A stretch of 64,000 bases of DNA from Powellomyces hirtus (taxonomy: Eukaryota > Chytridiomycota > Chytridiomycetes > Spizellomycetales > Powellomycetaceae): the NCBI GenBank assembly GCA_025526995.1, contig JAHLKG010000005.1:1488001-1552000 (forward strand), given 5' to 3'. The position numbers and the translations under genes were made by a program. Of the stretch, positions 9,475 through 28,609 are shown piece after piece; within the stretch, counting starts at the first letter, position 1; each line of letters begins with the position of its first letter. Below the pieces are notes generated by a model. It saw only the letters and a program-made list of their open reading frames with translations. It did no database searches and was not told where the DNA came from.

Positions 9475-9929
9475 GAACAAAACTCCTCCTTCCCTCCACT
9501 TCCTGACTACTGAGTATTTATAGATTTAATGACAAAAAAAGTTCCCGGTATCATACATGTCGCGTATGAAAAGACAAAACGAAGTCCCATGCACCGTTAA
9601 ATGCGGATTGCATCATATCTGTGGAGCATGTCAACGTGTTGCGCCACACATTTGCTCCCAAGAGACTGAGTGAGATACGAGAGAAACTTTTGTCGCTCAT
9701 GTCTTCTTATCATTCAAGTGATATACCGGTGAAGCATACACGATGATCTTGTATATACATCGAGAGCAGTGGCTTAACCTCTGCGGCTCTAGCGCAGGTG
9801 GTGGCCAGTCATGTTGCATCACTTGTTGTTTGCTACAAGAGTGACAGGGTGGCACTACCCACCCTGCACCTTTACGTAAGGGGGGCGTCAAGCAGCGTCA
9901 ACTGCCTCGGAAAAAGAAAACTAAACTAT
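9475..9929. other. intergenic, downstream flank of both the kinase and the Fanzor-like gene
   Basis: Convergent 3' ends of the kinase (plus) and Fanzor-like gene (minus). No protein frame is credible. In Fanzor/OMEGA loci the guide RNA usually overlaps or follows the 3' end of the nuclease gene, so this is where such an RNA and the right end of a carrier transposon would be expected. I found no terminal inverted repeat pairing with the other side. A sequence cagtggcttaacc near 9767 looks like a transposon start but has no visible partner. Confidence 0.4.
9845..9866 (-). ncRNA. 8 bp hairpin in the Fanzor 3' flank, possible guide-RNA element
   Basis: CAGGGTGG and CCACCCTG form a perfect 8 bp stem around a 6-base loop, 64-85 bases past the Fanzor-like stop codon on the coding (minus) strand. 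The structure is real in sequence; that it belongs to an omega RNA is only inference from where such RNAs usually lie. A transcription terminator-like fold is the alternative. Confidence 0.25.
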
Positions 9930-10862
9930 TTACTCGGATCTACGCAGATGGGCTGGCCTGCCATTCCCATCAATCATGGAACGGACAATGAGATCAAAGT
10001 TGCGAGTGGCAAGAAGATCACGGTTCCAGTACTTGAGCCGCGAGAGGGTGCGTGGATTGACGGCCCACGAGGCATCTGCACATGCTCTGCATCCGAGCAA
10101 GCCGTGGACCTCATCCATCTGCCCTTGAGCAGCTCTCCAAGGCCGTGGCGAGAGTCGCTTTGGGAGTACATGTGTGTGCACACGTCCGTGGCTCTGTGGG
10201 CAACAGGAAGAAGTGCGGTATTCGTCGAGGAGGAAGCAGGGTATATGATGCTTTTTGAAAAGCTTGCGGAACCCTGCTACCTTTGTAGGCTCTACCCATT
10301 TCCTGTGCCGGCCTCCCGTCTGGCTTGACCAGTCTCCCATGACCACCAGAAGTTTGGGGCCGAAGCGTTCCCGCATGTGCATGATGAGCTTGTCCTCCGC
10401 TGACATCTTTTGCCGCAGAGCGTCAAACTTCATGGTTGCCCAGGTGCCTAAAAAAATGAGAAAAATTTAAAAACAACTAGCAACGCCAGCGGCTAACAAA
10501 AACTACTTACCCGTGTTGTAGCAATTAACCAAAGAAGCACGGTTGACTGCTTGCCACTCGACCCATTCAGAGAAAGCAAGGACATTCATGGTCTTATGGG
10601 AAGGGGATGTCGATTCCAAGTGCATGATAGTTCTCGGAGGCCCTTTAAAATTTGCGGGTAGTACTTCCAAAGTTTGCGCTTGAATAGTTTCTCTTTGTCG
10701 GCGCATGCGGCGAGAGTTCGTGTCGCTGGATCGTTGCATCGACGTGTACCGCAGTGTCCAAGGAAAGGTATGAGGTATGTCCGGGTGATGAGATCCCGCT
10801 CGATATAACTCTTTCATGTAGAGGAGGTCTCTGACGCCGGGGTCGATGAGTATAACATTCGT
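9930..10862 (-). pseudogene. Fanzor-like RNA-guided nuclease, 3' half (RuvC core and zinc ribbon)
   Basis: Two coding segments, 10511-10862 and 9930-10447, separated by a GT-AG intron. The first begins TNVILIDPGVRD, the RuvC-I strand whose Asp (codon 10842-10844) is catalytic in TnpB/Fanzor nucleases. The second holds VVMGDWS at the RuvC-II position, then DEYRTSSCCP, a zinc-ribbon pattern with HGLLGCRAC, and WNRDLLATRN with the RuvC-III Asp. The RuvC-II position has Asp rather than Glu, while a Glu occurs about 37 residues later in DEYRTS, the alternative-glutamate layout described for Fanzors. The 5' half lies at 24919-26556; a retrotransposon sits between, directly before the first segment. 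Without the insertion the frame is continuous. Fanzors are eukaryotic RNA-guided DNA nucleases, one of the best studied coming from the chytrid Spizellomyces. Here it cannot be expressed intact. Confidence 0.82.
10858..10862. repeat. target-site duplication of outer retroelement, left copy
   Basis: TTCGT immediately before the 5' LTR (which begins TGTGAG) is repeated at 24919-24923 immediately after the 3' LTR (which ends CTCACA). A 5 bp duplication is usual for gypsy integrases. Removing one copy plus the element restores the Fanzor-like reading frame. Confidence 0.85.
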
Positions 10863-11257
10863 TGTGAGATGGCCATAAAGGCATATATACATACATATCT
10901 TTTTCGGCTAGTAAAAAGCCATGTCCTACATCAAGGCAGACGCGCCTCATAAGCGATTACCATAATCGCTCATAAGCGACCCCCAAAACTACCCTGCAGT
11001 TTCATAACTGCTAAGAGATCATCTCCACGTTACTATAGTTAGAAACCCACTTTTCCTATATAAGGGGAGGGAAAAGACCCCCCCCTTTTCATAACCAGAG
11101 ACAATCCACACCCGCGATTGCCTTTCCCCTTAAGAAATCAAAGACTTCCGCACTCTCTTCTTCTTTTATCCTGATAATCCGGCACCTCCTATCGTCACTC
11201 TCGCTTGGATATCAGTCCTAGTTCACTTCTCCCGCCTGAAAACTCACGCACCTCACA
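10863..11257 (+). repeat. 5' LTR of element 1
   Basis: 395 bp starting TGTGAGATGG and ending CCTCACA. Positions 10893 onward repeat at 24555-24918. It contains a TATATAAGGGGAGG element near 11057, a likely promoter for the genomic RNA. Short repeats of the word CTCATAAGCG occur near 10950-10980. Confidence 0.85.
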
Positions 11258-11270
11258 TGGTAGCACCACT
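11258..11270 (+). promoter_or_regulatory. primer-binding site of element 1
   Basis: TGGTAGCACCACT directly follows the 5' LTR. It would pair with a tRNA 3' end of the form GGTGCTACCA; an initiator-Met-type tRNA ends in this style, which is the best guess. Element 2 uses the same 12 bases. Confidence 0.75.
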
Positions 11271-11342
11271 CTCGTTCTTTCCTAACAGTACTCACTTCCT
11301 CTCCGCTTATCTTTCTTTTAGTAATCTTTAGCTACATTTACA

Positions 11343-12532
11343 ATGGCTGCACTTGTCGCTGCCGCTTGGACCATCCCAGCCGTTATTGGCCCAGTCCTAC
11401 AGAGCAATGATCGACTTGGCAAATTGACCCTTCGAACTACTCTCGCCGCTAATACTAAGACCATTCCATACTATTCCGGCGAACATGATATGGAATTGAT
11501 CGATCTCTTTGTCACGACTAATGTTCGAGCATGCAACTACCTTGTTGCAACCCATACTGGTATTGCTTACAACCAGTTTACGTACTTTGATGAGTATGCC
11601 GTTACGAACATGGACGCTTCCGTTATCCTCTGGGGGCAACGGGCATCATGAATGTTTTACGTGTCATGCCGGCGGCCCCCGGTGAGGGTGTCACTACTTG
11701 GTGGGCCAATCAGTTCTACCAACGTTGGATGTCCCGAAATGTCACAACTCGCTTGCATCAGAAACTGGTAGCTCTTTCCCTTGGCGCCTCCTTGGAAGAC
11801 TACATCTGTGAATTGGAACGTTACCGCCATCTCGAAACGATTGCTGTGCAAGCTAACGGCACTATCACTGAGCGACTCTTGAATGAGGGCGAGATGATTC
11901 AACTCTTTTGAGCCAGCCTTCTTTGAAACACAACTTATGGCCTCTACCTTGTTCAAGCCCTCCAGAATTTTATGACCCTACGGTTGACCATGGGTCAGGC
12001 TATGACTTGGCCTCTGGCCGTCATCTGCGTTTGGAATGCAGCAGCTTCTCGCAACTTGGTCGATGGTCAGCTTATTGCACCTAAACCTCAGAGTCCAATG
12101 CCGACTCGTTTTCATCCATACTCGGATATCGAGCAAGGTCCTTCTTGTCCCTATCGACGCGAGTTTCAATCTACGCGAACGACTCCAGCTTCTAATGCTC
12201 CACAGAGATCCATGAATGAGAACCCTCGACGAGCAGCTCCGCAAACTCCTGCCAGGAGACCCACCTTAGCGGCGCCTAATGCTGCACAGCAGAGAACCCC
12301 AGCAAGACGACCGGCATTTTCCAATACCACAACAGCACAAAGGACTTCTAACCCTCGACGCGGGAATGTGATGTTATGTCAACGTTGTGGCCAAACTAAT
12401 CACCGTATGCAAGATTGTTACGCCAAACGAGATGTCAATGGTGACACTCTTAGAGATGACCCTCCCAGTACCTACCGCAATGCGCGAATTGCTCGCATGG
12501 AATCCAGACAAGAAGATCACTTGGACGCATAA
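11343..12532 (+). pseudogene. gag: gag of element 1
   Basis: Begins at an ATG about 70 bases past the primer site. The capsid-like part runs through 11343-11911 with one frameshift near 11640, then continues in one frame interrupted by TGA at 11909 and 11924. The nucleocapsid end is basic and Pro/Arg-rich with one CCHC zinc knuckle (12377-12418, CQRCGQTNHRMQDC). The frame ends with TAA at 12530. Gag forms the particle that packages the element RNA; this copy is broken. Confidence 0.8.
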
Positions 12533-15500
12533 CTCCAGGGGATCAGCCAGACCAAGATCCTACGGATTTTCTGAATGGCTGGGAGTAGAGATCGGTCCCT
12601 CTCAGCATCAGGGGGGTCACATAATCCTCTCTGAATCTGACATCCCATTGATGACTTGTAATCGGCCACCCAAGAGCCCTCAGGGCAATCCGACTGCGAT
12701 TCGGCGAGCTAATCTTGAAGCTAATCTTAGACCAGGCAAGGCTTCGAGCGCGCCTAGCTGGGTATTCCGTATCAAAATTGGCAATGCACCAATTATAGCC
12801 CTTCTGGATACTGGCTGGAATACCATGGTGATCCAAGATCGAGTTGCAGAAGAACGACAGCTCCAAAGGAAACCCCACAAACATCCTTACAGTGATGACA
12901 CCGCTGGCGCAGGACAGACTATCCGAATTACATCCCTTACAACTCAATCAATAGCGATCTTCAACAACCTCTTGCAAAGCTACACTCCCATTGCATCGTT
13001 CAAGTTCGAGATAGCATCTATCGGGATTCTGGTTATTCTGGGATTACCGTTCTTTGAAGCAATAGGAACTTTCACTTGTGTTACTATTGAACGACCACAT
13101 CACATTACGTTTACATTGAATGATCAACCTTTTGATTGTTCTTTGCTACGATCTCCGCGACACGCTGAGGACCCGGATTCCTTCGTCCGTAAGACTGGAA
13201 CATTTACTGTCCGAGGAGCCGCTAAAAGCGTGAAGCAAGAAAGACAAAAACCTTATCAAGGTATTGCCGCTGTATTGACTAAGCGATTCAATAAACAGCT
13301 ATGACACAATCAGTATCGTGAAGCTTTCGCAATCCACGTACGCCTACAGTAGAGACGGACACATTTGAATCCGCTCATAAATCGTGGCCTACGTTCCTGG
13401 ACTCAGTACTCCGGAAGTTTGAGGAAACTCTCTTTAAAGAAAGTGATGACTTACCTTCCGATCGGGGCGACAATAATTTTCATATTGATGTCGTTCCTGG
13501 ATCGAAACCAGTGTTTCAAACCTTACGCCCATTATCGCAAGATCAACTGACTGAACTTTGGAAGCAACTAGATCATCTGCTTTCTAAAGGATGGATACAA
13601 CATTCCAAATCTCCTTGGGGCACCTCCGTGGTTTTTGCTGTCAAGAAGACTGGCGGGATCCGTGTCTGCTGGGATTATCGCGGATTAAATGCAGTTACAA
13701 TTAAGGACCGTACTCCGCTTCCAAATTTAAAAGAAATGAGAAACCAGCTATTAGGTGCCCGTTTCTACACACTCATCAATTTGAAAGATGCTTACCATCA
13801 GCTACTTATCGCTCCAGAAGACCGTGAGAAAACAGCTATCCGCACGAGTTTTGGGCTTTTTGAATACGTCGTTATGCCCTTTGGTCTATGTAACGCACCC
13901 GGCGCTTTTCAACGACTTATGAATCAAGTCCTTGGTGACCTTTATGATCTCTGTGTCATTTGTTACTTGGACGATATCCTCATCTTCTCGGCCAACTCTA
14001 CAAAGCATTGGGAAGATGTAGCCGGGGTGCTCCAACAATTAGAAAACCATTCCCTTTATGTCAATGCAGCGAAATGCCAATGGGGCCAACCGGAAGTCGA
14101 ATTCTGTGGACACCTTTTTAGTGTCAATGGCATGCATATTGCCAACAGCAAGATTGCAGCTGTTCGAGATTGGCCGATCCCGCAGACTACGAGACACATT
14201 CGACAATTTCTTGGACTGACCAATTACTTCTTGGATTATATCGAACGATATGTCGAAATTGCCGCTCCGCTTTCAGCATTACAAGTCGTCAAAGCCGCCT
14301 TCGAATGGATATCAAAGGAGCAAGATGCTTTTAATGCCCTCAAAGCTGCCGTGACAACGGCTCCAGTTCTAGTCACCTTCATTCCCGACAGTCCGATTTA
14401 TGTTCATACAGATTCCTCAGGATATGCCATTTCGGAATGGCTAGGACAACCTCCTGACGGGAAGCCGCTCCCGATGCCACTACCGATTCATCGTGTGTGA
14501 GCCATGGAGCAACTTCCTAAACTTCGTCCTGTTTTCTTCTTTTCACGGAAAATGAATGGAGCCAAAACTCAATATCCAGTGCACAAGCAAGAGCTCCTAG
14601 CCCTCGTCCGATTCCTTAAGACCAATCGATTTTACCTTATCAATTGACCCTTCATTGCACTCGTCGATCACCGATCGTTAGAACATCTACAAACTCAACC
14701 ACATTTGATCAAACGGGAAGCCAGCTGGTTTGAAACCCTACAGGAGTTTGATTTCTCCATCCAATATTTTCCCGGTCGATTCAATACTATTGCCGATCTC
14801 CTCTCTCGCAGTCCCACTTATGCACCACGTTGCATTGAATGTCAGAAACAGCTAATGATCACAGCTTATATGAATACCAACGAACATCCATTCCCTACTA
14901 CATTCGGACTTGAGGAATGGAAGCGTGAGTTACGTCAAGATGACTATGCAAATCATATTCTTGAAGTACTACAGAAACTCAAGCACGAGTGACCAGTTCA
15001 ATATCGACAATTTGCGATACGACCGGATGGGATCATCACATATGAAGATGAACGTCTCTATGTCCCATACTCGATAAGACCGCATGTACTACGAGAATTC
15101 CATGACGAGCTACCTAATGGAGGACACCAAGGCCCGCTGGCTACCTATGCCAAAATGTTACGCCGCTACTTTTGGCCTAAGATGCAACAAGATATTTGTT
15201 CCTTTGTTCGTACCTGTACCAAATGCCGCTCCTTTTCGCGCCCACAGCGCAATGGCCTTTTACGACCGCTTCCCATACCATCTACTGTCAATCATACTCA
15301 TGCGTTTGATCTCTTCGAGTTACCGCGACCCCGGGAAAGTTCTGAGCACCCATTCATTATCTGCATCGTGGATTACCTATCCAGTTGAACACATCTTGTC
15401 CCCGCGGAAAGCACTCTCTCCACACGTCAATTGATGACGCTTATCTTGAGCCAAGTTTGGAAACATACAGACATACCTGTCCTCGTCATTTCCGATCAAG

Positions 15501-16407
15501 AACCACGATTACTAGTGGACCTTTTCTCTGCCTTGGCTAAGCTGACTGGCGTTCGACATGAGTTTGCCACGGCCCGACATCAACAAACAGACGGCCGAGT
15601 GGAAAGGATGATCCAAGTCACCAAGTCCATTACCCGCAAATACCTTGATTATAGCGGAACAAATTGGCGTGAGTTCCTTCCTCTTGTGGAATTCTGTTTG
15701 AACTCTATGCCGCAACGACACCTTAACGGTCTGGCCCCATTCGAAATTGAGCTAAATCGAATGCCGCGTCCTCCTGGTTGGAATATTAATTCTGAACAAC
15801 TTGCCCGAATGACACCACCAGACCGAGCACTCTCAACTCTATCAAGAATGTGCTGCAGATATACATCTTACGGTTCAACAAGCCCTCCGCAATGAGCAAG
15901 ATTGTTTCGACAATATTCAATCAGGGGCAAATCCCCATCGTCTTTGAAATCGGCAACCTTGTTGATTTCAATCGCGCGCAACTCACCATCAACTTTGCCC
16001 AAGTTAAACCACTCAATCTTACCCCCAAATGGATCGGGCCATTCAGCATTTCAGCCAAAGGACCTCATCCCAATACATATCGCCTAGACCTATCTCATAC
16101 AGTCCTTAAGGCCATTTGGCCCTACTTCCACGTCAACATTCGACGGAAACATGTACCATCTATGCATCCGCTCCGCAATAGAACACCGCCTCCACCAGAA
16201 CCGGTCTTAATCGAGGCAGAGCTTGAATATCCTGTCGAAGCCATACTCAACGAACGAATAACCGGCCAACGCCGTAACCGCCGCCGAATGTTTCTGACCA
16301 AGTACATCGGCTGGCCAGAACCTTCATGGCAACCAGAAGCCAATATCAGAGACACCGAAGCATTCGAAATATGGAGGGTTAACAATCCTCTGCTGAAATT
16401 TAGATAG
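12387..16407 (+). pseudogene. pol: pol of element 1 (protease, RT, RNase H, integrase, chromodomain)
   Basis: The protease has an intact LLDTGWNT motif near 12800. After a frame change around 13310, one frame runs from about 13310 to 15895. It carries RT motifs (LPNLKEMRNQL, LINLKDAYHQL, FGLCNAPGAFQ, CYLDDILIFS), the RNase H motif HTDSSGYA, an integrase H2C2 finger (CTKCRSF) and the D-D-E core (SDQEPR; QQTDGRVERM). It is broken only by TGA at 14498, 14645, 14990 and 15386. Frameshifts near 15850-15950 precede the last part, where a chromodomain is seen (PVEAILNERITGQRR... FLTKYIGWPEPSWQP). Confidence 0.85.
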
Positions 16408-16554
16408 ATGAACAAAGCTTAAGCTCCCTGTTCAAATGGACAAAGCCGCTCAGGAGCCGCTCCCTATCCAGGCTATAAGCCGAACTTCATACCGAACCTG
16501 ACGGGGCTTTGAGTACCAATCTACTCAACGGAGAGATTGAAGCCAGTGTAAGCC

Positions 16555-16640
16555 TAAGTGCTGCTCCAGGAGCTGACACCATATGGGAGCTCGTCCTATG
16601 GCAAGCCAGCAACTGACGCCGCATGGGAGCTCGTCCTGCG
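16555..16640 (+). repeat. short direct repeat upstream of element 1 3' LTR
   Basis: Two copies of a roughly 50 bp unit sharing GCTGACACCATATGGGAGCT / ACTGACGCCGCATGGGAGCT and then CGTCCT, located between pol and the interrupted 3' LTR. The 16 or so bases expected at the start of the 3' LTR do not match the 5' LTR well here, so this end has been altered. Confidence 0.45.
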
Positions 16641-16696
16641 ACTCAGTAACCTCATGCCTCCTGCTCTAAAGCCCAAGAGGCAAAGGCAGGCATATT

Positions 16697-16701
16697 TACA
16701 T
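16697..16701. repeat. target-site duplication of element 2, left copy
   Basis: TACAT precedes element 2 and recurs at 24550-24554 directly after it. Joining the two flanks rebuilds the element 1 LTR sequence GCATATTTACATACATATC, matching the 5' LTR at 10881-10899 apart from one base. Confidence 0.88.
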
Positions 16702-16976
16702 TGTAATAATACTAGGTCCGTTGCCAGAGTCTAGTCTTCTATTCGGGAATTCCCTCTGTCTAATTCTACTGTAAGATCTCTAAGTCTTGAATACGCCCTC
16801 GTCGGAGTATTCCTACTTTTCTTCTGGACCGCGGAGCGGTCCTGGTCACGTGATGGCCATCCGTGGCCATCCCTAAGGCATAGTACCCTGCGGGGTGCTT
16901 ACGCTAGCATCCATCTCGCGCGGGGCCCTCCCCGACGCGTGTCTAGGCTTAGGCTGGTGAGCCACACCTCATTACA
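16702..16976 (-). repeat. 3' LTR of element 2
   Basis: 275 bp, reading in the plus direction from TGTAATAATAC to CTCATTACA. It is near-identical to 24275-24549. It contains an inverted motif GGACCGCGGAGCGGTCC and the palindrome-like GATGGCCATCCGTGGCCATC. Confidence 0.9.
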
Positions 16977-16985
16977 CCCCCCTTA
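16977..16985 (-). promoter_or_regulatory. polypurine tract of element 2
   Basis: On the minus strand TCTAAGGGGGG abuts the 3' LTR start (TGTAATGAGG). This is the position and composition expected for the plus-strand primer. Confidence 0.75.
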
Positions 16986-17392
16986 GATTCGCAACTATCT
17001 CGTAGGCTCAAAGCTCTTCAGCAAGGCAAGGCTTGTCTAAGCCGAACGGCTGCAGGATAACGGATGTGACGTGGCCGTGGGAGGATGAGGCTGGTGAAGC
17101 GGTTCTGGTACAGGTCGCATCACGGTAGTCTCCGGCGGGTAGTCTCCGCCCTTAGTAGGGCGCGATTTCGTCGAAAAGTCTATTTCTCTCTTCGCAAGGG
17201 CCCTAGATGAATCTCGAGTAGCTTTCTCCGTGCGAATCTCGATAAGTAACATCTGCTGCGCTCCGTAGGGGGTGAAACACTAACACCTGGATTTCCGAGT
17301 GTTCCCAGCCAGGTCAAGCCTTCAAAAGGCGCTGCCCGTTGAATTTCCCCCCTCTTGCTCTTCTTTCTCCCGTAGCTCAACGTCCACCCACA

Positions 17393-17436
17393 CACACACA
17401 TACCCGCACACACACACACACATACATACATACATC
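17393..17436. repeat. CA/CATA microsatellite
   Basis: Alternating CACACA and CATACATACATA runs directly upstream of the antisense Cys-rich frame. Confidence 0.8.
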
Positions 17437-17438
17437 CA

Positions 17439-18176
17439 ATGGCCGAGACCGCCAGCAACTCTTCCCCGCCCCCGACATCACCACCACGGGCAAGCGCAGG
17501 CCCACCCAACAACCTCCGAAAGGCGCTGCCAAGCGGGCCCAGCCCGCCCGGGTAAGTAGGAGTCGGTGTCCGTCCCCGGTTGTGACAACTCGTCTCACGT
17601 CACCCATCTTCCCTTGTTATCCGTAGGACCCCTCGGTCCACGAACAATCCACCGCCGAGGGGTCGGTTGGGCTGCCCGCATGTTGGAAGTGCCACCAATT
17701 CTGAAACGGCAAGATGTTCACTTCGGGATGCCACTATCTGGTGTGCCGTCCTTGCATCGTTGCAGAGGCTGATGACACGGTATGTTCACCATCGTGGGAA
17801 TGCGGCTTGATATCTGCCTGACGGTGTGATCCCCTTGTTCCTTACTCCTCAGACCAACGGCCTCCAGGGCCAATTGACATGCGGCGCATCTGGCTGCGGC
17901 CGGGCTTTGTTCTTCGCGGCGATCCCTGCCGGCTGCCAGTATGACGGCTGCGCCCATGTCGGGGCAGACCTCCGCGTGTTCCCATGCAACCACCTCCACT
18001 GCATGGTCCATGTTCGTGCGTAAGTAGTACTCTGCGGCTCACAGCTGGCTTACCTGGCTAACTCAGCTCCCTTCGTAGCAAGATGAACGTCGCCAACTAC
18101 ACACCCCTCCGGTGCGGGTTGGCGACTGGTGCCACGGCAATCGGTGCCAGTTCTCCTTCACCAAGATTGGTTGATT
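17439..18176 (+). pseudogene. Cys-rich spliced frame, antisense to element 2
   Basis: Four blocks can be joined through GT-AG borders (donors at GTAAGTAGG near 17552, GTATGTTC near 17780, GTAAGTAG near 18021; acceptors CCGTAG, CCTCAG, CGTAG). In the frame kept across the last three blocks the product is Cys/His-patterned like a RING or treble-clef finger: CWKCHQF, GCHYLVCRPC, LTCGASGCGRAL, GCQYDGCAHVGADL, FPCNHLHCMVHV. A TGA follows CHQF, and the ATG at 17439 is not in this frame, so the start is unclear and the gene is probably dead or mis-modelled. An AATAAA follows at about 18262. Introns opposite to the element's own transcript would survive retrotransposition, so an antisense cargo gene is plausible. 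Function unknown. Confidence 0.38.
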
Positions 18177-18369
18177 AGTCCTTTCCCCCCCCCCTTTATT
18201 TCATGTACATACTTTTGTTTGCTGTCTGTCGCTGCCTCCGGGCCTGGCCTTCGGGCCGTAATAAATTCAGTACCCAAATCTCATCACTGTATTTTTCCTC
18301 TCATTGCTGTGCTTCTTCAAGCTCTGTGGTAATTTGTATGTGCCCGCTGTGTCCAATATCACTCGGCTT

Positions 18370-19120
18370 CCTTCCGGCTATGGTGCTCATGGTCGATGCC
18401 CTGCAGCACCCTTCCCCGCTGGGGAAGACCACCCGGCGGTCCCTCGGCCATCGTCCAATGATGCCGGCATCTCACCTAGTGAGGTCTACTGCTTTGCAGT
18501 CTTCGGCTCATTGCCCAGCGATCCCGGCATCTCGCCCAGCGAGGTATGTCGCCCAGCGACCTTTGGCCCCTCGTCAAACAATGTCGGTATCTTGGCCGAA
18601 GCCCTTCTCTTCCCCTTCGCGTGGATATGTACTACGGCCATGGTCCCCGCGTGTCTCGAGGTACGCTGCCATGCAAATCTGGTGCCGGTCACCTTGCATT
18701 GGCCAGTCGGTCGATGCCCAGCATCACCCTTCTCACCCAGTGAGGTATGCCGCCCAGCGGCCTTCGGCCCATCGTCAAACAATGCCGGAATCTTGGCCGA
18801 AGCCCTTCTCTTCCCCTTTGCGTGGGTATGTACTACGGCCATGGTCCTCGCGGGTCTCGAGGTACGCTGCCATGCAAATCTGGTGCCGTCACCTTGCATC
18901 GGCCAGCCGTCGGCTCATCGCCCGGCGATCCCGGCATCTCACCCAGTGAGGTATGCTGCCCAGCAGCCTTTGGCCCATCGTCCAACGATGCGGGCATCTT
19001 GCCCAGCGAGGTATGCTGCCTTGCAGCCTTCGGCCATTGTCCAACGATGCCGGCATCTCGCCTAGCGAGGTATGCTGCCCAGCAGCCTTCGGCCATCATC
19101 CAACGATGCCGGGACCTCGC
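18370..19120. repeat. GC-rich tandem repeats in the 3' region of element 2
   Basis: Two nested periods. A unit of roughly 50-60 bp built on CCCAGCGAGGTATGCTGCC, GCAGCCTTCGGCC and CAACGATGCCGGCATCTCGC recurs many times. A unit of about 200 bp (18590-18910) is duplicated, each copy holding GGCCGAAGCCCTTCTCTTCC, TACTACGGCCATGG and CATGCAAATCTGGTGCCG. All frames stay open across parts of it, which is typical of repeat DNA. Confidence 0.85.
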
Positions 19121-19181
19121 ACTATAATGTCCTCTACCTCAAGTAGCATATCTCTTGTTAATTTACGGTACAGCTCGCCAT

Positions 19182-22100
19182 CTAGGTTCTCTTACGTCGC
19201 CTGGCTGCTAGCCTTTGGCCGCGGTCCTCTCCGGGGTGCTCCCTGAGCCATTCTTCCAGTGCGGTCGTTCCCTTCACGTGTGCGTAGGGCTCCCACGTGT
19301 TCTGGGTGTTGTCGTAACCTGTCCATTTGACTAAGAACTGCTTGGTGTTCCTGTGCCATCTTGCATTTAGGATCTTGTCCACTCGGTAGGTTTCCTGACC
19401 GTCCTCGTCCTTCTCGGGCTCCGGCGGAGCGGTGACCTGTCTGTACAGTGTACCGCCCGGGTCATGGTAACGTCTCAGAATGCTGACGTGAAAGACTGGG
19501 TGCAACCCGGTGAACTCCTTGGGTAGTTCGAGCTCGTAGGTGTCAGGATGTGTGCCCTTGTTGCGTACTGTGATTGGCCCAATCCATTGCTCAGCTAGCT
19601 TTTTGTTCCTTGTGGTGACGCTGGTGATCGCAATACCCTCTCGATGGAGTAAGACCTTGTCACCCTCTCGGTATGCTTCCGTGTGCTTTTTGCGATCATA
19701 GTACTTTGCCTGCTGGACCTGTGCTTTCTGGAGCCCTTGCTGCACGATGCGGCTCACGTCGGCGGATTCCTTAATTCGTCTCTCCACGGCGGTTCGTGCT
19801 GATTGCCGTATCATCTCCCCGGGATTAGATGCTACCCATTGGTTCGGTACCCGGGGAATGCGGCCTAGGTCAATCTCGAAAGGAGACAGTCCCGTCGATG
19901 TCTGCAGTGTTCGGTTGTAATTGTACTCAAGTGTGGGGAGTAAGCTCTTCCAGTTGGAGCCGGCATAGTCAAGGAAAGGGCCCATGATCCCCTTGACTGT
20001 CTTGATGGCGTTCTCCGCCTTGCTGCCGGTCTGTTGGTGTCGTGCCGACGAGAGTTCCTGCTTGACGTCGAGTGCCTGCATGAGGTACTGCCAGAATTCT
20101 GATAGCCACTTGGGGTTCCGATCACTCACGTTGGTGTGGGGCAACCCCGTATGGCAAAATGCCTGTTCCAGAAAGAGTTGAGCCGTCTCCTGAGCTGTAG
20201 CACGTGTGCTAGTAGGTAGGAGTATCACGCGGCATGAAAGGTAGTCAACAATGAGGAGTACGGCGTCCGCCATCTTGGTCAGTCTCTCGCCGGTGTCTTG
20301 CAAAGGGTTCTTCGTCACATCGGGCTCTACCCGAGGTTCCCCCCCTTAGAGCCTGATATGGGGAAGAAGACATCCATGTTGATTTGTTGCCAACGAGCGT
20401 CGGGGATTGGTAAACTGCGGAGGAAACCAATCGGTGCAGCGCGCTTGTGACGTTGGCAGGTAGGGCAGGTGCGGACATATTGGTACACATCACGCTCCAT
20501 GTGGGGCCAATAGTACGACTCCAGAAGTTTGGCGAGCGTCCGTTGGACGCCGGAGTGACCACTGTTTGTGAGGGAGTTGTGATGAATCTGAAGGAGTGGC
20601 CCCCGTAAGCTGTCGGGGACGTACCGACGGCTGTGGTACATCAAGAATCAGTGCGGAGGGGAGTGCATCGTCCAGAAGCGGCGCGCATGGCCGGACAGGT
20701 TCTCCTGTGGACTGTTGATAGTTAGTAAGATGTTTTGGCCGAAATCATCGGATGCGAGCGCTCGGGTCCATTCCGCATCGGTTGGCATGTGCATCGTGAC
20801 GGTCTTCTCCATGTGCACAATGGTGGTGACCACGTCGATCCTGGCCTGGCAGGTCGCACACTTGGGGGCGTAAGTCGGGTCGCGACTTAGGAAGTTGGCG
20901 ATCGAGTTCCATGAGCCGGAGAGGTATTCCACTGAGAAATCGAACTGTTGGAGGAACTCGACCCAGCTCGCTTGGCGACGTGACAGGTGGGGTTGTTCCT
21001 GAAGGTAGATCAGGGATTTGTGGTCGACAAAAGCACGAAAGGGGCAGCCAATGAGGTAATGGCAGTTGACGTGTATGGATTTGACCAGTCCCAGCAGTTC
21101 TTGTTCATGTATGGGATATCGGGTCTCGGCTGGTTGCATCTTGCGGGAGTAGTATGTCACCGGGCAAAGTTGCGGAAGGTTAGCTAAGCCTGATTTGGTG
21201 GTAGGTAGTGGATGAGGGTATGGGAAATCCCCTGCGGCCGGCTGTGCCAGCCATCCACCATAGGCGTAGCCCGATGCGTCTGTAAACAAGTAGGTGTCAA
21301 GCGCCGGGTTGAAATACGCTAGGGTAGGTGCCGAAGAGCATATTTCCTTTAAGCGATTGAATGCCTTGTCCTCCTCGTTGCCCCATTGCCATGGGCGATT
21401 GCCGGATTGTAGGTTTGTTAACGGTAGGGTGATCTGTGCATACTCGGGGATGTATTCTTTGACGTAGTTGACGAGGCCCATGAAGCTGAGGAGTTCCAGT
21501 GAGTTGGTCAGACAAGGTCGTTCCCGGACCGCGGTCACCTTGGAGGGGGCGATACTCAAGCCATCCTTGCCGACTCGGTGGCCGCAGAACTCGACTTCGT
21601 CAACCGCCCATTGACATTTGCTGGGTTTGACGTGGAGGAGATGTTTCACCAGGGTCTTGAGGACCTCATCGACGTGCTGAATGTGCGAACTCATGTCGGT
21701 GCTGAATATGAGAATATCATCGAGGTATGAGATCACGTAGGCATCGTACTTGTCGCCCAAGAGTTTGTTGGATAGTTGCTGGAATGTAGCAGGTGCATTA
21801 GTTAAGCCAAAAGGTAGAACATTGTTGTCGATCGCGGTGAATACCCGCATGTTGACAAGCCTGTCGCGCAGCTCCGAGAGGTTCGGAAGTGGCGTGGCAT
21901 CCTTGTGGGTCATCTTGTTCAGTGCCCGGTAGTCAATGCAGCAGCGTAAGCCACCATCCTTCTTTGGGGCAAATAGGACGGGTGCACTCCACGGACTGCG
22001 AGAGTGTGAGATCCAACCCTTGTCCATTAAACGCTGCATCTGCTGGCCGAGCTCGTCCAATTTGTCAGGGCTCAAATGCCAGAGTGGCTGCATCACGGGC

Positions 22101-23026
22101 TTTGAGCTGGGTTTGAGCTGAATGGTGAAATTGTCCTCGCCTCGATCCGGAGGCATGCTTGACTGCTCGGTGAATAGTGTCGTGACATATTTCTCTAGGG
22201 TCGGTCGGAGTGGATGGTCGGCCGCCAGCGCCTCTAGCTGGTCCTCTTGATCTGCCGTCTTGGCTTCGGTGTTGGTGTGGGGTCGTTCCTCCAAGATTGC
22301 CCTTTTCTTGGCATCGACCGTCCGTACGAATTGAGCCTCTACGACTGGAATCGGATCTACGATGTGTACCTCGAAGACTCCAGTGATCTCGCCCTTCTTC
22401 ATCAAGCGTTTCCATTGCTTGGCCATGTAGATTCCCTCTGCATTGAGTGCTGGCTTCGCCAGCTGGAATCTGCGGGGCCGTATCTCTCGTGGGGAGAGCA
22501 GGCGGGTGGCACACGCGGACGGTGCTTCCCAATGGCGATTAGTCGATTTGGCTCGAAGGCTGAGGGTCTGACCGTTGTGGTAGAACGTCATCGTTGGGAA
22601 GCCTTCTTGGTCGAAGAGCCCTCAGACATCCAATCCCAATATGAATGGCAAGCCCAGTATGACATCGACCCTGATCGGCATGACCACGAATGGTACAGTA
22701 TCCTCCCAGTAGGTGATCTTCTCCTCGGTGAACACCGAGAGGTCCCCACAGGTCATTTTCATTGCCCCGTAGTTTCCCGCTCTGTTGCTCCATCTGACTT
22801 CCAGCAGAGTTGGAGAGGTGTAGGTCCGGAGGCCGTGTTTGGTGGCCCAAGTGTCGCTGATGATCAGGGTGTTACATCCGGTATTGATTAGGATGCGGGC
22901 AAAGTGCCCTTGTACCTTCCCGTGGACCACGAATGTCTTCCTGTGAATGCGGGGTCCCAGTCTGTCCGTGGGGATCTTGTCTTGCATCCGGGGTTGGGGT
23001 ACTGAGATGGTGCAAGCGTTCAGCAC
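19182..23026 (-). pseudogene. pol: pol of element 2 (protease, RT, RNase H, integrase, chromodomain)
   Basis: It overlaps the gag end by a few bases in another frame. The protease region (23026-22622) has ILINTGCNT where DTG or DSG is expected, so the catalytic Asp reads Asn. RT-RNase H (22591-20648) shows LPNLSELRDRL, FGLTNAPATFQ, SYLDDILIFS and FTDASGYAYGGW. The integrase finger (20644-20327) has HHNSLTNSGHSG and CPTCQRH; the core (20318-19182) has SDRNPKW and QQTGSKAENA. It ends with a chromodomain (YRVDKILNARWHRNTKQFLVKWTGY) and a basic tail. Two TGA codons and one frameshift interrupt it. At 2% LTR divergence this copy is decayed but its relatives may be active. Confidence 0.87.
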
Positions 23027-24246
23027 CCGGGGCGAAAATCCAAGCTCTTGACTGAGCCCCCGTCGCTGACCGCATCGTTCTTGGACTCTTCGGTGATCTC
23101 TACAGGGGCGGCGAACGTCTTATGCTCGCCGGTCTTACCTTTACCTGCTGAGCACCCACAGGCGTAGTGCCCCTTGCCTCCACAATTGAAGCATTCGTTG
23201 CGCTCACGGGGCTTGTTGTAGATGGTGCGCTCACAGTGTGAAATCCCTTGGTAGTTGTCCATACCGCGTGTGGGGCGGCCTGAGCCGTAGGGCGTGTGGC
23301 GCCCCCGTTCTCGCACTTGATGGTTTCCTCGGTGTACCTGAGCCAGCTGGACTGCGGCGTACTGATGTCTTCTCCCGTCAGAGGTCACCCGCGCGAGGTC
23401 ATCCGCATAGCCTCGAATCTTGTAGCATAACAGGGCTTCGTTCTGTAGCTCGGTGATCGGGATCTTGGCGCCATTATTTCTCATGATCGCGGCGTAGCAG
23501 TGGTCTCGAATGCGCTGGCCGACATGGTTGGTTGAGAATCCGGTCAAGAAGTAGTCACGCTCTTGCCTTGAGGTAAGTCGCTCCTTGTCGTCGAGCGTTG
23601 CGATCTGGGCCCAAAGGGTATTGAACTTGGCGATGTACTCTGATATGCTATTAGTGAAAACCAGCCGCTTCATCTTTGCCTCCGCGGTGTTTCGTAGGTT
23701 GGCGGGATAGAAGCGGGTGCAGAGGATCCTCGTGAACTCTTCCAATGTCGTGGGCAGGTCGTTGGCATCCCTGAGCATTTGCCACCACTCGTCGGCGGTC
23801 TCCTTGAGGTACCCTGAGATGTGATCGACGTCCCGGTGGTCTGTCCTGAAGTCGGTTGCCTCAAGGTAGCGTGTATGGACCTTCAAAAACTCGTTGACCT
23901 TAGACACCATTTCTTCGCTGTTTCCTTTGCCGTCAAAGTGTGTCAGCTGCTTGCAAAGGTTCTCGCGGCGTTCCTTTTCAGCTTGCATTCGTGCTCGGTT
24001 TTCTTCCGCCAGGATAATGTCGTCGTGTGGTGTTGCAGCCGTCGGTTGGGCTTGAGCTGGGATCCTCAAAAGGAGAGCAGCGAAACGTGCTTCTCCCATT
24101 GCGATCTGCTCCTGCAGTAGCCGTTGGGTCTCCGCCAATTGTGCAGCCAACATTATGACGGGGTTGTCGGTCGGTGTGTCGACTTCGGGTTCTCCTACTG
24201 CCGGGCTTTCTCCTGCCATTGGGCTGTTCCTGGTGCTACGTGCCAT
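23020..24246 (-). CDS. gag: gag of element 2
   Basis: An intact frame of 408 codons starting 28 bases past the primer-binding site. It has an acidic Pro-rich start, a helical stretch with heptad-like Leu/Gln (QLAETQRLLQEQIAM), then the conserved gypsy capsid core (ETADEWWQMLRDANDLPTTL; RFYPANLRNTAEAKM; SISEYIAKFNTLWAQI). An Arg-rich nucleocapsid with one CCHC knuckle follows (CFNCGGKGHYACGC). It is the only retroelement frame in the window that looks fully open. Confidence 0.85.
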   Translation of the reverse strand: MARSTRNSPMAGESPAVGEPEVDTPTDNPVIMLAAQLAETQRLLQEQIAMGEARFAALLLRIPAQAQPTAATPHDDIILAEENRARMQAEKERRENLCKQLTHFDGKGNSEEMVSKVNEFLKVHTRYLEATDFRTDHRDVDHISGYLKETADEWWQMLRDANDLPTTLEEFTRILCTRFYPANLRNTAEAKMKRLVFTNSISEYIAKFNTLWAQIATLDDKERLTSRQERDYFLTGFSTNHVGQRIRDHCYAAIMRNNGAKIPITELQNEALLCYKIRGYADDLARVTSDGRRHQYAAVQLAQVHRGNHQVRERGRHTPYGSGRPTRGMDNYQGISHCERTIYNKPRERNECFNCGGKGHYACGCSAGKGKTGEHKTFAAPVEITEESKNDAVSDGGSVKSLDFRPGC

Positions 24247-24259
24247 TGTTGTCGTCTAC

Positions 24260-24274
24260 AAGGTGGTGCTACCA
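24260..24274 (-). promoter_or_regulatory. primer-binding site of element 2
   Basis: On the minus strand TGGTAGCACCACCTT directly follows the 5' LTR end (TTATTACA), matching 12 bases of the element 1 site. Confidence 0.78.
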
Positions 24275-24549
24275 TGTAATAATACTAGGTCCGTTGCCAG
24301 AGTCTAGTCTTCTATTTGGGAAGTCCCTCTGTCTAATTCTACTGTAAGATCTCTAAGTCTTGAATACGCCCTCGTCAGAGTATTCCTACTTTTCTTCTGG
24401 ACCGCGGGGCGGTCCTGGTCACGTGATGGCCATCCGTGGCCATCCCTAAGGCCTAGTACCCTGCGGGGTGCTTACGCTAGCATCCATCTTGCGCGGGGCC
24501 CTCCCCGACGCGTGTCTAGGCTTAGGCTGGTGAGCCACGCCTCATTACA
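24275..24549 (-). repeat. 5' LTR of element 2
   Basis: 275 bp partner of 16702-16976; about seven base differences seen by eye. Followed by TACAT (24550-24554), the right copy of the target duplication. Confidence 0.9.
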
Positions 24550-24918
24550 TACATACATATCTTTTTCGGCTAGTAAAAAGCCATGTCCTACATCAAGGCA
24601 GACGCGCCTCATAAGCAATTACCATAATCGCTCATAAGCGACCCCCAAAACTACCCTGCAGTTTCATAACTGCTAAGAGATCATCTCCACATTCCTATTG
24701 TTAGAAACCCAGTTTTCCTATATAAGGGGAGGGGAGAGACCGCCCCTTTTCATAACCAGAGACAATCCACACGCGCGATTGCCTTTCCCCTTAAGAAATC
24801 AAAGACTTCTGCACTCTCTTCTTCTTTTATCCTGATAATCCGGCACCTCCTATCGTCACTCTCGCTTGGATATCAGTCCTAGTTCACTTCTACCGCCTGA
24901 AAACTCAGGCACCTCACA
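24550..24918 (+). repeat. 3' LTR of element 1, body
   Basis: It matches 10888-11257 of the 5' LTR with about 14 differences. Its first 30 or so bases lie on the far side of element 2 (about 16671-16701) and are only partly recognisable. It ends CCTCACA, and the TTCGT target duplication follows. Confidence 0.87.
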
Positions 24919-26556
24919 TTCGTTTTGCCATCTGTCTGTGCTGCACGTCGAACACGTTCCAAATTTTGGAGCACGTCCACATAGAGGGCCTCGACCATAG
25001 CTTTCCGCTTTGCCTTTGTCATTCTGGTTGGCTTCCGAGTACCGCTGCTGGTTACTGCTCGAGGTGCCTTGAGCCATACAGAGATACCTGTGCCATGGGT
25101 TTGAATGGTTCCTTCAAAATGATGAGTAAAAGGATGTTGTCCTCGTCGATGAAACGAAGAGTGTCCCAGATTGAAGCACATAGCCCAGATGTTCATCTTG
25201 TTATTCAAGTTGTTGATTGGCATCCTCTTGCAGAGCAGAACTACATCACGGAGAAGCTTGGTGTTGATGGTAACATACGTCTGAGTATGACTTGTTCGAA
25301 GAGGCAAGACGTTGAAGAGGGGGAGACCATGCATTTCGAAAAGGCGGGCCACTCCTGCGTAACTTTCCAGATAGAGCTCAGGACACACTACAACATTGAC
25401 AACCACAGTAACATCTTCAAAAAGATTGAAAGCTCGATCTGGATATGTGCCCCATATGTCTTCGAGTACCTCCAGCTCCAGGGGAGAGAGTTGCAGCAGC
25501 ACTTCTGATGACTGTAGGAGCCCTTTGGGATAAACCGCAAGCTCCTTGACATGGTGCGCTCGTCGATAGAGATGTCTGAGGCTAAGTCTCAAGTCGTTGC
25601 CTGAGCGGAACCTCTTCATTACATCAGCAAACTGCTTGATTCGCAATCGCTGGTTGATGTAACTTCAAATCTTCTCCCCAAAGTGCATCTTGACATTCGT
25701 GTGCATGTTGGCAAGGATGCTTTCAGCACAGTAATTGATGGCATTTTGGATTGCGTTTCCAGTTGTTGTTGGAGTGAACCTTGCTTCAACAACGTAGGCT
25801 TGAATGATTGGACAAAGACTGTGAATGTTATTAGAACATGAAACTAGATGAGAATTGCCGGGAACTTCTGACTACCTTGTAGTAATATAGACCATATCTG
25901 CTGCTCTCGGGTTGTAACGCGGGTTGTTGAGGAGAGTAAGAATAATTCGAACATGCTTGAGAGTCAGCACAGGAAAAGACCCGGCAACTTGGTGCCGCAA
26001 TAGCCAATATTTGATTGCCCACGTAGCATGCTGAGCAAAGTGATGAACAGTGTTGATGAAGGACATGAGACGCACCCGCTCTTGTGCAGTACCAAACCAG
26101 GCCCTGGCAAAAGAGCCCTTATTGGTAACAACCGACGGCACTGCAGGTGGTTTCTTCCTCTTCTTTCTCCTCCGTAGACGGCGTGCAAGTTCTCTTGAGT
26201 AGGAGTTGTCACCGGAGGTGTCCCAGTCAGAACTGGATGAGCTTGAAGAGCTGGAACTTGGGTTGGAGTCCGGACGATGTGGCTGCCGAAGCTTTTTTTT
26301 TGGAGTGGCCGGTATCTGAGGGACCGGGTGTTCTTGTGGAGGCGTATGGACATTGGTGTTGCTGCTGGCAGGATTGCTGCTCCATGGTGAATCTGCGCTG
26401 CTGCCTCTGGGATCGTGGACGTCTCCATATTCCTCGGGACTCCTGGTGTCATTGTAAAGACTGAGACTTTGATATTGGAAACATCAAGTCCAAATGTGCG
26501 ACGAGCCTTTACCTGGTGCGCTGTTTCTTTCTAGGAGGGGACCTTTGGTCGCTCAT
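24919..26556 (-). pseudogene. Fanzor-like RNA-guided nuclease, 5' half
   Basis: Three coding segments: 26513-26556, 25876-26466 and 24919-25818, with GT-AG introns. The start (MSDQRSPPRKKQR) and a cluster around residue 110 (RRRKKRKKPP) look like nuclear localisation signals, separated by a Ser/Pro-rich unstructured stretch. The rest is the helical N-terminal part of a Fanzor: NTVHHFAQHATWAIKYWLL, HTNVKMHFGEKI, SYINQRLRIKQFADVMKRF, then the strand block HHFEGTIQTHGTGISVWL just before the RuvC core. Joined to the 3' half, the exons total 2,400 bases, exactly 800 codons, which supports the model. One in-frame TGA interrupts it at 25665-25667 (after GEKI). Whether the TGA or the retrotransposon came first cannot be told. 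A TnpB-like origin is the family-level view; no search was possible. Confidence 0.78.

Positions 26557-28609
<2,053 letters not shown>

Follow-up and report, generated by a model that had tools for sequence, protein, structure and literature searches.

The window analysed here is a 64,000-nucleotide stretch of the Powellomyces hirtus genome. It contains two halves of one gene on the minus strand (26556-24919 and 10862-9930), which are parted by an insert of 14,056 bp (10863-24918) with a duplication of TTCGT at its edges. When one copy of TTCGT is dropped, the halves join to a modelled spliced length of 2,400 nt (1638+933-5-166, with introns of 46, 57 and 63 nt). The exon-intron structure is an inferred model; an alternative first intron of 70 nt, using the same donor and a CACCAG acceptor, would also keep the frame and give a total of 2,376. 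The join falls at V-I-L-I, i.e. four codons ahead of the RuvC-I Asp of IDPG. The original prediction had placed the gene halves at these positions, with a 2,400-base join located four codons before the RuvC-I Asp, and all three claims hold: a contiguous paralog matches each half, the lengths add up, and V-I-L-I is followed by IDPG. Its claim that the joined introns are in phase stands with respect to phase (2,400), but the frame is not open, as it contains an in-frame TGA (25667-25665).

The insert consists of two LTR elements, with the inner one sitting within an LTR of the outer one. The predicted nested retrotransposon is thus confirmed by two LTR pairs, one element lying in the other's LTR. 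The two LTRs of the outer element differ by 13 mismatches in 375. The inner element contains every Ty3-type domain in order, its integrase matching at E=2.9e-5, under the curated cut-off, and it resembles Ty3-type (Metaviridae) elements with a chromodomain in the order gag-protease-RT-RNase H-integrase-SH3/chromodomain, in its LTRs and in its 5-bp target-site duplication. In contrast to such elements, both the inner and outer coding regions here are split over several frames. In the domain search of the insert the integrase of the outer element had no Pfam match, and its Ty3 type therefore rests on its other domains.

Table 1. Features of the split gene, the insert and the flanking regions (window coordinates; exons follow the inferred model).
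Feature	Position	Strand	Remark
Guide-like flank	9814..9833	-	beyond right end; differs in each of 13 right ends
Candidate omega-RNA scaffold	9834..9929	-	post-stop right end; predicted hairpins 9908-9890 and 9870-9840; ends TCACTCTTGTA
Last 72 nt of CDS	9930..10001	-	nucleotide-level conservation across the 7 Fanzor right ends identified
Fanzor stop codon TAA	9930-9932	-	end of exon 4
Fanzor exon 4	9930..10447	-	GDW motif, relocated Glu in LLDEYRTSS, zinc ribbon, RuvC-III Asp in WNRD
Fanzor exon 3, downstream part	10511..10862	-	RuvC-I Asp in IDPG; one TTCGT copy inside
Target-site duplication TTCGT, left	10858..10862	.	insert edge
Outer element 5' LTR	10863..11258	+	10884-11258 aligned to other LTR copy
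Outer element coding region	11927..16407	+	zinc knuckle, protease, reverse transcriptase, RNase H, SH3_Tf2-1
Inner element target duplication TACAT	16697-16701 and 24550-24554		5 bp
Inner Ty3-type element LTR	16702..16976	-	275 bp, 97.5% to its partner
Inner element coding region	19182..24255	-	gag, protease, RT, RNase H, integrase, SH3_Tf2-1, chromodomain
Inner Ty3-type element, other LTR	24275..24549	-	LTR pair
Outer element 3' LTR, main part	24550..24918	+	interrupted by inner element; 96.3% over 375 bp to 5' LTR
Target-site duplication TTCGT, right	24919..24923	.	insert edge
Fanzor exon 3, upstream part	24919..25818	-	broken by insert; other TTCGT copy inside
In-frame TGA in exon 3	25665..25667	-	sense codon at same place in C19 paralog
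Fanzor exon 2	25876..26442	-	starts at 26466 with 46-nt first intron
Fanzor exon 1	26513..26556	-	ATG at 26556; C19 paralog with same ATG and donor
Fanzor 5' region common to C19 paralog	26557..26683	-	homology stops at 26683
Unit in other Fanzor copies and dispersed tandem arrays of about 171 bp	26596..26769	-	sequence matches

An uninterrupted paralog

A search for uninterrupted copies elsewhere in the genome, which had been proposed with the prediction, yielded a paralog on contig C19 that is 96% identical and carries TTCGT once. The window halves were compared with it separately, one piece at a time; they match C19:653636-655273 and 652710-653640 at 96% each, and the two matches overlap by exactly 5 bases, such that a natural empty site exists. 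An accidental join of unrelated fragments, as might be imagined from the 14 kb between the halves and the stop inside the window frame, is excluded for practical purposes because the contiguous paralog matches both at 96% with an overlap equal to the target-site duplication, and LTRs lie at both ends of the insert. Once spliced, the paralog has a frame without stops and a modelled product of 793 aa.

Family assignment and lesions of the window copy

Fanzor proteins are eukaryotic relatives of CRISPR nucleases. The spliced C19 paralog matches the solved Fanzor1 proteins SpuFz1 of Spizellomyces punctatus (8gkh; E=7.3e-96, residues 87-790) and that of Parasitella (9cf0; E=1.7e-44), bearing out the proposal that the gene is a Fanzor relative. 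The proposed test against TnpB/OrfB profiles was also run and did not help the assignment: Pfam and NCBIfam searches over the window pieces, P0001 and three relatives returned no model above cut-off. The best TnpB match was the sub-threshold NF040570 (E=0.22), and a Ser/Arg-rich N-terminal stretch matched SR-25 below cut-off. Named relatives occur in Geranomyces variabilis, in S. punctatus and in a second series of P. hirtus annotations; precomputed domain entries assign PF07282 to 2/10 relatives and PF26935 to 6/9. Because the profiles give nothing above cut-off, the assignment rests on direct comparison with the solved Fanzors. The gene could instead belong to another RuvC-fold family (e.g. 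a transposase or a bacterial-type TnpB), as the lack of a TnpB/OrfB profile match might suggest; however, two Fanzor1 proteins solved by experiment are matched over nearly the full length, which makes this very improbable, and the four further sequences within an E of 1 are weak (0.017 to 0.82). At the level of sequence, identification of the gene as a Fanzor1 of the SpuFz1 type is supported.

The metal-binding residues reported for SpuFz1 in PMC10432273 (D383, E541 and D606) align with IDPG, LLDEY and WNRD, respectively. Both the window copy and the C19 paralog have the RuvC-I Asp, the relocated Glu and the RuvC-III Asp (IDPG and WNRD in both); a copy on C4 reads WNRG. The paralog sequence EYRTSSCCPQC fits the relocated-Glu pattern ExxxxxxCxxC, with Glu six residues ahead of CxxC, as given in PMC10711439. 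The window copy keeps this Glu but reads CPQS where the paralog has CPQC, so that one Cys is lost and the zinc ribbon is incomplete.

The original prediction held that this copy had been inactivated by retroelement insertion. The insertion stands, but not as the sole lesion, for the copy also carries the nonsense codon and the lost zinc-ribbon Cys, neither of which was mentioned there. The Fanzor might already have been dead through these two lesions before the retroelement arrived, leaving the insertion as a passive scar. Consistent with this, the window copy carries both the TGA and CPQS, and its divergence from the paralog (dS 0.045) is similar to that between the outer LTRs, so that divergence does not separate the order of insertion and lesions. 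Such substitutions would, however, also be expected after insertion, once constraint was gone, and we regard prior death as a serious possibility while leaning against it. The dN/dS of the window copy versus the paralog is 0.69, which points to no more than weak constraint on these two copies; activity of the C19 paralog is therefore putative.

Right ends and left sides of the elements

The right end, a hairpin followed by a copy-specific flank, occurs at 13 distinct places in the genome, some of them without a Fanzor ORF. A hairpin of 9-14 bp is predicted, together with a different flank, in 13/13 of these. Conservation extends into the coding sequence: within the last 24 codons, 21/22 are alike between two Fanzor copies, versus 31/72 elsewhere. 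An Rfam search of the Fanzor pieces and right end had no match up to E=1. Of the 13 flanks, the guide-like one beside the window copy was searched; it has no second place in the genome, and thus neither a target nor an empty site turned up.

The right end of the elements is precisely defined. To look for an inverted counterpart on the left, three queries derived from the right end were compared with upstream stretches of 1.1 to 3.2 kb, using 100 shuffles and an element on C40 as control. Scores were at chance upstream of 7/7 Fanzor copies (between 20 and 95 of the 100 shuffles did at least equally well) and in 4/4 short ORF-less elements, with the C40 positive control recovered; this element, which lacks the ORF and lies on C40/C6, shows inverted copies at its two ends. 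In a whole-locus inverted-repeat scan with one shuffle each, some of the best matches were downstream or coincided with the right end. A simple insertion history for the left side of the C19 copy was considered and rejected, since a dispersed repeat forms the left flank of that copy, and no continuation of this repeat was seen on the copy's right side at the loci examined. Among the reading frames listed near the left-end repeat arrays are some that, by eye, we take to be Tc1/IS630-like DDE; a transposase sharing the Fanzor ends was sought among these frames, and no link to the ends was found.

Proposed history and comparison with known Fanzor systems

We conclude, with a probability of roughly 0.94, that the window gene is a copy of a chytrid Fanzor1 element of the SPu-1/SpuFz1 type, split by an outer LTR element that carries a nested Ty3-type element, and that intact copies would be RNA-guided nucleases with a guide RNA at the right end. 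The gene structure, the empty site in the paralog, the homology to a solved Fanzor and the two pairs of LTRs, each with its target duplication, are direct observations. According to the model, the outer retrotransposon entered exon 3 at a point four codons ahead of the RuvC-I Asp, generating the TTCGT duplication, and the Ty3-type element afterwards inserted into its LTR. The window copy cannot make the complete protein. Uninterrupted copies such as that on C19 would produce the nuclease, with its guide RNA presumably transcribed from the element right end and the guide taken from the flank. Because its right end keeps the conserved sequence and hairpins, the dead window copy could still supply guide RNA in trans. 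More speculatively, dispersed guide-RNA ends in dead Fanzor copies (the window copy included), in short ORF-less elements and in an element of 0.9 kb whose two ends each carry an outward-facing scaffold might be usable by at least one uninterrupted P. hirtus Fanzor, and the last 72 nt of the CDS might be dual-use, as part of the guide RNA or as a promoter or processing signal for it; such a role would account for the freezing of these codons between subfamilies. We consider this proposal unlikely.

A multi-copy family of the SpuFz1 type is now described in a second chytrid genus, together with a clean natural pair of empty and filled sites that includes an uninterrupted paralog. The reference system is SPu-1/SpuFz1, the Fanzor1 of S. 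punctatus (Bao and Jurka 2013, PMC3627910; Saito et al. 2023, PMC10432273; PDB 8gkh), for which a Ty3 inserted in a Fanzor gene (PMC10432273) and ORF-less 'ghost' elements that share only the post-stop region have already been described. The question of whether Fanzor acts in trans on guides from elements that have lost the protein-coding part is left open in PMC10432273, and P. hirtus could be used to ask it, since its guide-RNA end persists in dead copies and in those that lack the ORF. The two systems belong to the same family over 700 residues with catalytic residues aligned and share a conserved region from stop codon to right end followed by a variable flank, ORF-less elements, and TA at the element end (PMC3627910). 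They differ in that SpuFz1 is a single ORF whereas three introns are modelled in the P. hirtus gene, that SpuFz1 has DPN where the C19 and window copies have DPG, that SPu-1 has terminal inverted repeats and no left one was found in the 1.1 to 3.2 kb searched upstream of the seven P. hirtus Fanzor copies, and that P. hirtus shows nucleotide-level conservation over the final 72 nt of its CDS. For this conserved tail a possible parallel is GtFz1 of Guillardia theta, whose omega-RNA shares the final 17 codons with the CDS (PMC10432273); the corresponding overlap in P. hirtus is suggested by DNA conservation.

A Fanzor gene interrupted by nested retrotransposons

In the 29.3-Mb genome the window belongs to contig C5. 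The original prediction, that a Fanzor gene here is split by a nested retrotransposon, was followed up by searching each half of the gene separately against the genome. Besides its own locus, the upstream half matched a single place (C19:653636-655273, 96%). The downstream half gave 10 matches: its own locus, C19:652710-653640 (96%) and eight of shorter length. On C19 the two matched stretches share exactly 5 bases, indicating an uninterrupted paralog with one copy of the target site. From exon 2 to the stop, through the target site, the paralog's frame is open, and the paralog is modelled with the same three introns as the window copy. Thus, the two halves belong to one gene. The expected joined length of 2,400 bases was reproduced with introns of 46, 57 and 63 nt; an alternative first intron of 70 nt keeps the phase just as well, for a length of 2,376. 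The prediction had not mentioned an in-frame TGA at 25667-25665, where the C19 paralog has a sense codon, nor that the second Cys of the paralog's zinc ribbon (CPQC) is Ser in the window copy. Compared piece by piece over 768 codons, the two copies differ with dS 0.045 and dN 0.031 (ratio 0.69).

Two repeat pairs explain the insert and bear out its nested structure, with the inner element (target site duplication TACAT) lying inside the distal LTR of the outer one. The outer 3′ LTR has a short start just before 16702, too diverged for exact placement. In both elements the coding sequence is spread across several frames; the integrase frame of the outer element had no Pfam match, and the inner integrase scored below the curated cut-off. 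Judged by domain order, the inner element is Ty3-type, and the outer element is probably Ty3-type. Internal tandem duplications were observed in the inner element between the coding region and LTR (18441-19120). Separately, an inverted fragment at 27163-27257 is ~80-83% identical to the outer LTR. It lies immediately upstream of a reading frame on the plus strand, near 27371, that by its motif looks like a cyclin-dependent kinase.

Features of the split gene, its insert and an ORF-less element (window coordinates unless a contig is named)
Feature	Position	Strand	Details
Fanzor gene, upstream half	26556-24919	minus	first half of one gene
Fanzor gene, downstream half	10862-9930	minus	second half of the same gene
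Insert between Fanzor halves	10863-24918		TTCGT at both edges
Outer LTR pair	10884-11258 with 24546-24919		96.3% of 375 bp
Inner LTR pair	16702-16976 with 24275-24549		97.5% of 275 bp
Outer element reading frames	11927-16407	plus	zinc knuckle, protease, reverse transcriptase, RNase H, SH3_Tf2-1
Inner element coding region	24255 to 19182	minus	gag, protease, RT, RNase H, integrase, SH3_Tf2-1, chromodomain
ORF-less element	C40:22078-22956 and C6:1201471-1202349		0.9 kb; Fanzor right end inverted at both ends, TA at each end

The assignment to Fanzor was upheld by the spliced product of the C19 paralog (793 aa), which matched SpuFz1 of Spizellomyces punctatus (E=7.3e-96, residues 87-790; seven PDB entries, 8gkh among them) and Parasitella parasitica Fanzor1 (9cf0; 1.7e-44); the other four distinct sequences within E of 1 were weak (0.017 to 0.82). 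The metal-binding residues of SpuFz1, given as D383, E541 and D606 in PMC10432273, align to IDPG, LLDEY and WNRD. The protein shares with rearranged TnpB/Fanzor-type proteins a DPG motif and a Glu placed as ExxxxxxCxxC, the pattern described in PMC10711439. The profile comparison with TnpB/OrfB models that the prediction had proposed gave nothing over cut-off in Pfam or NCBIfam, and PF07282 matched two places in the genome, both loci other than this Fanzor. These two (L021:3298-3867, minus; L022:4233-4889, plus) are zinc-ribbon fragments of the TnpB/Fanzor kind, unlike the window family. Protein searches found 10 relatives in one case and 9 in another, the latter among the 7,995 candidates with the highest word overlap, the only ones scored; named relatives were from P. 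hirtus, Geranomyces variabilis and S. punctatus, and precomputed domains were PF07282 in 2/10 and PF26935 in 6/9.

Right ends with and without a coding sequence

Homology of the window element to the C19 copy spans 26683 to 9834. Seven Fanzor copies (window, C19, C4, C34, C23, C1 and C11, the last a remnant keeping only the ~last 30 codons) have a sharply defined right end: the alignment stops at CA(C/T)TCTTGTA, and the flanks beyond differ. A genome search with the right end returned 15 matches. Because the C40 and C6 places have identical flanks and near-identical, though not identical, loci, they were counted once, leaving 13 distinct right ends, namely the seven Fanzor copies, four short elements (C3, C23:133 kb, C30 and C2) and both ends of the C40/C6 element. 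In these five non-Fanzor elements the match is post-stop only (query 73/74-168, or 82-167), and 19 Fanzor-type proteins detected no coding sequence there or within ~1.5 kb on each side (best E 0.054). The C40/C6 element would yield two outward-facing guide-RNA ends. The C4 Fanzor copy, whose RuvC-III motif is WNRG, directly adjoins sequence resembling the upstream portion of ORF-less elements (locus L016:4150-4281), the junction falling on a stretch similar to TATAAAAG.

All 13 right ends are predicted to form a hairpin of 9-14 bp immediately ahead of the terminus, and for any of them at most 5/500 mononucleotide shuffles fold as well. The longer region of 94-128 nt gave z-scores of only -0.55 to -2.28 in six copies, so the structural case is carried by the terminal hairpin and not by overall stability. 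Pairing in the terminal stem appears to be retained despite base changes, as in the C2:298 kb version with its GAAA loop. Of the 13 right ends, 11 have another small hairpin around CAGTTGACGCTG, pairing GGCAG..CTGC in one subfamily and GGCCAG..CTGGCC in the other; the exceptions are C1, without that stretch, and one deviating end of the C40 element.

At the other side, 1.1-3.2 kb of upstream sequence was examined for each of the seven Fanzor copies, and no left inverted repeat matching the right end rose above chance (20 to 95 of 100 shuffles scored as well), whereas the C40 control lay far above all 100 shuffles. PMC3627910 describes SPu-1 as having inverted repeats of 33 bp and putative TA duplications; the C40/C6 element, which has TA at each end, agrees with this, but such inverted-repeat ends were not seen in the P. 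hirtus Fanzor copies. The Fanzor 5′ region holds a ~171-bp unit found elsewhere in tandem arrays (34 genome matches, including the window and C19 copies). Ten matches lie at C13:462779-464380, beside a gag frame resembling the one in the inner retroelement, and each of C7, C11, C12, C22, C41 and C2 has two or more; several of these loci are near frames that look Tc1/IS630-like by eye.

A frozen end of the coding sequence, and precedents in S. punctatus

Across the last 24 aligned codons of C19 and the diverged C23 copy, 21/22 same-residue codons (Met and Trp excluded) match exactly, compared with 31/72 in the preceding 143 (Fisher p=5.7e-6); for the window copy against C23 the counts are 18/22 and 31/75. 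Earlier 24-codon windows of exon 4 show 49-81% identity between C19 and C23. In the C34, C23, C1 and C11 copies this final block has 94-96% identity to the window, and it stops within ~7 bases past the stop codon. According to PMC10432273, the GtFz1 omega-RNA overlaps the last 17 codons of its CDS and that of SpuFz1 is located after the stop. Since the ORF-less elements lack the block, the scaffold would not strictly require it even if it belongs to an RNA. Equally compatible readings are a promoter or processing signal and recent exchange between copies.

No earlier mention of Fanzor in Powellomyces was found in the open-licence PMC papers searched. The window Fanzor is well verified and of a kind already known, the frozen CDS tail being the one feature for which the parts of PMC10432273, PMC3627910 and PMC10711439 consulted gave no earlier report. 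For S. punctatus, PMC10432273 records 42 Fanzor loci and 134 'ghost' elements consisting of the omega-RNA region without an ORF. It also lists 11 loci that carry additional genes, among them Ty3 inserted on either side of the Fanzor gene or within it; both the interruption and the ORF-less elements therefore have precedent.
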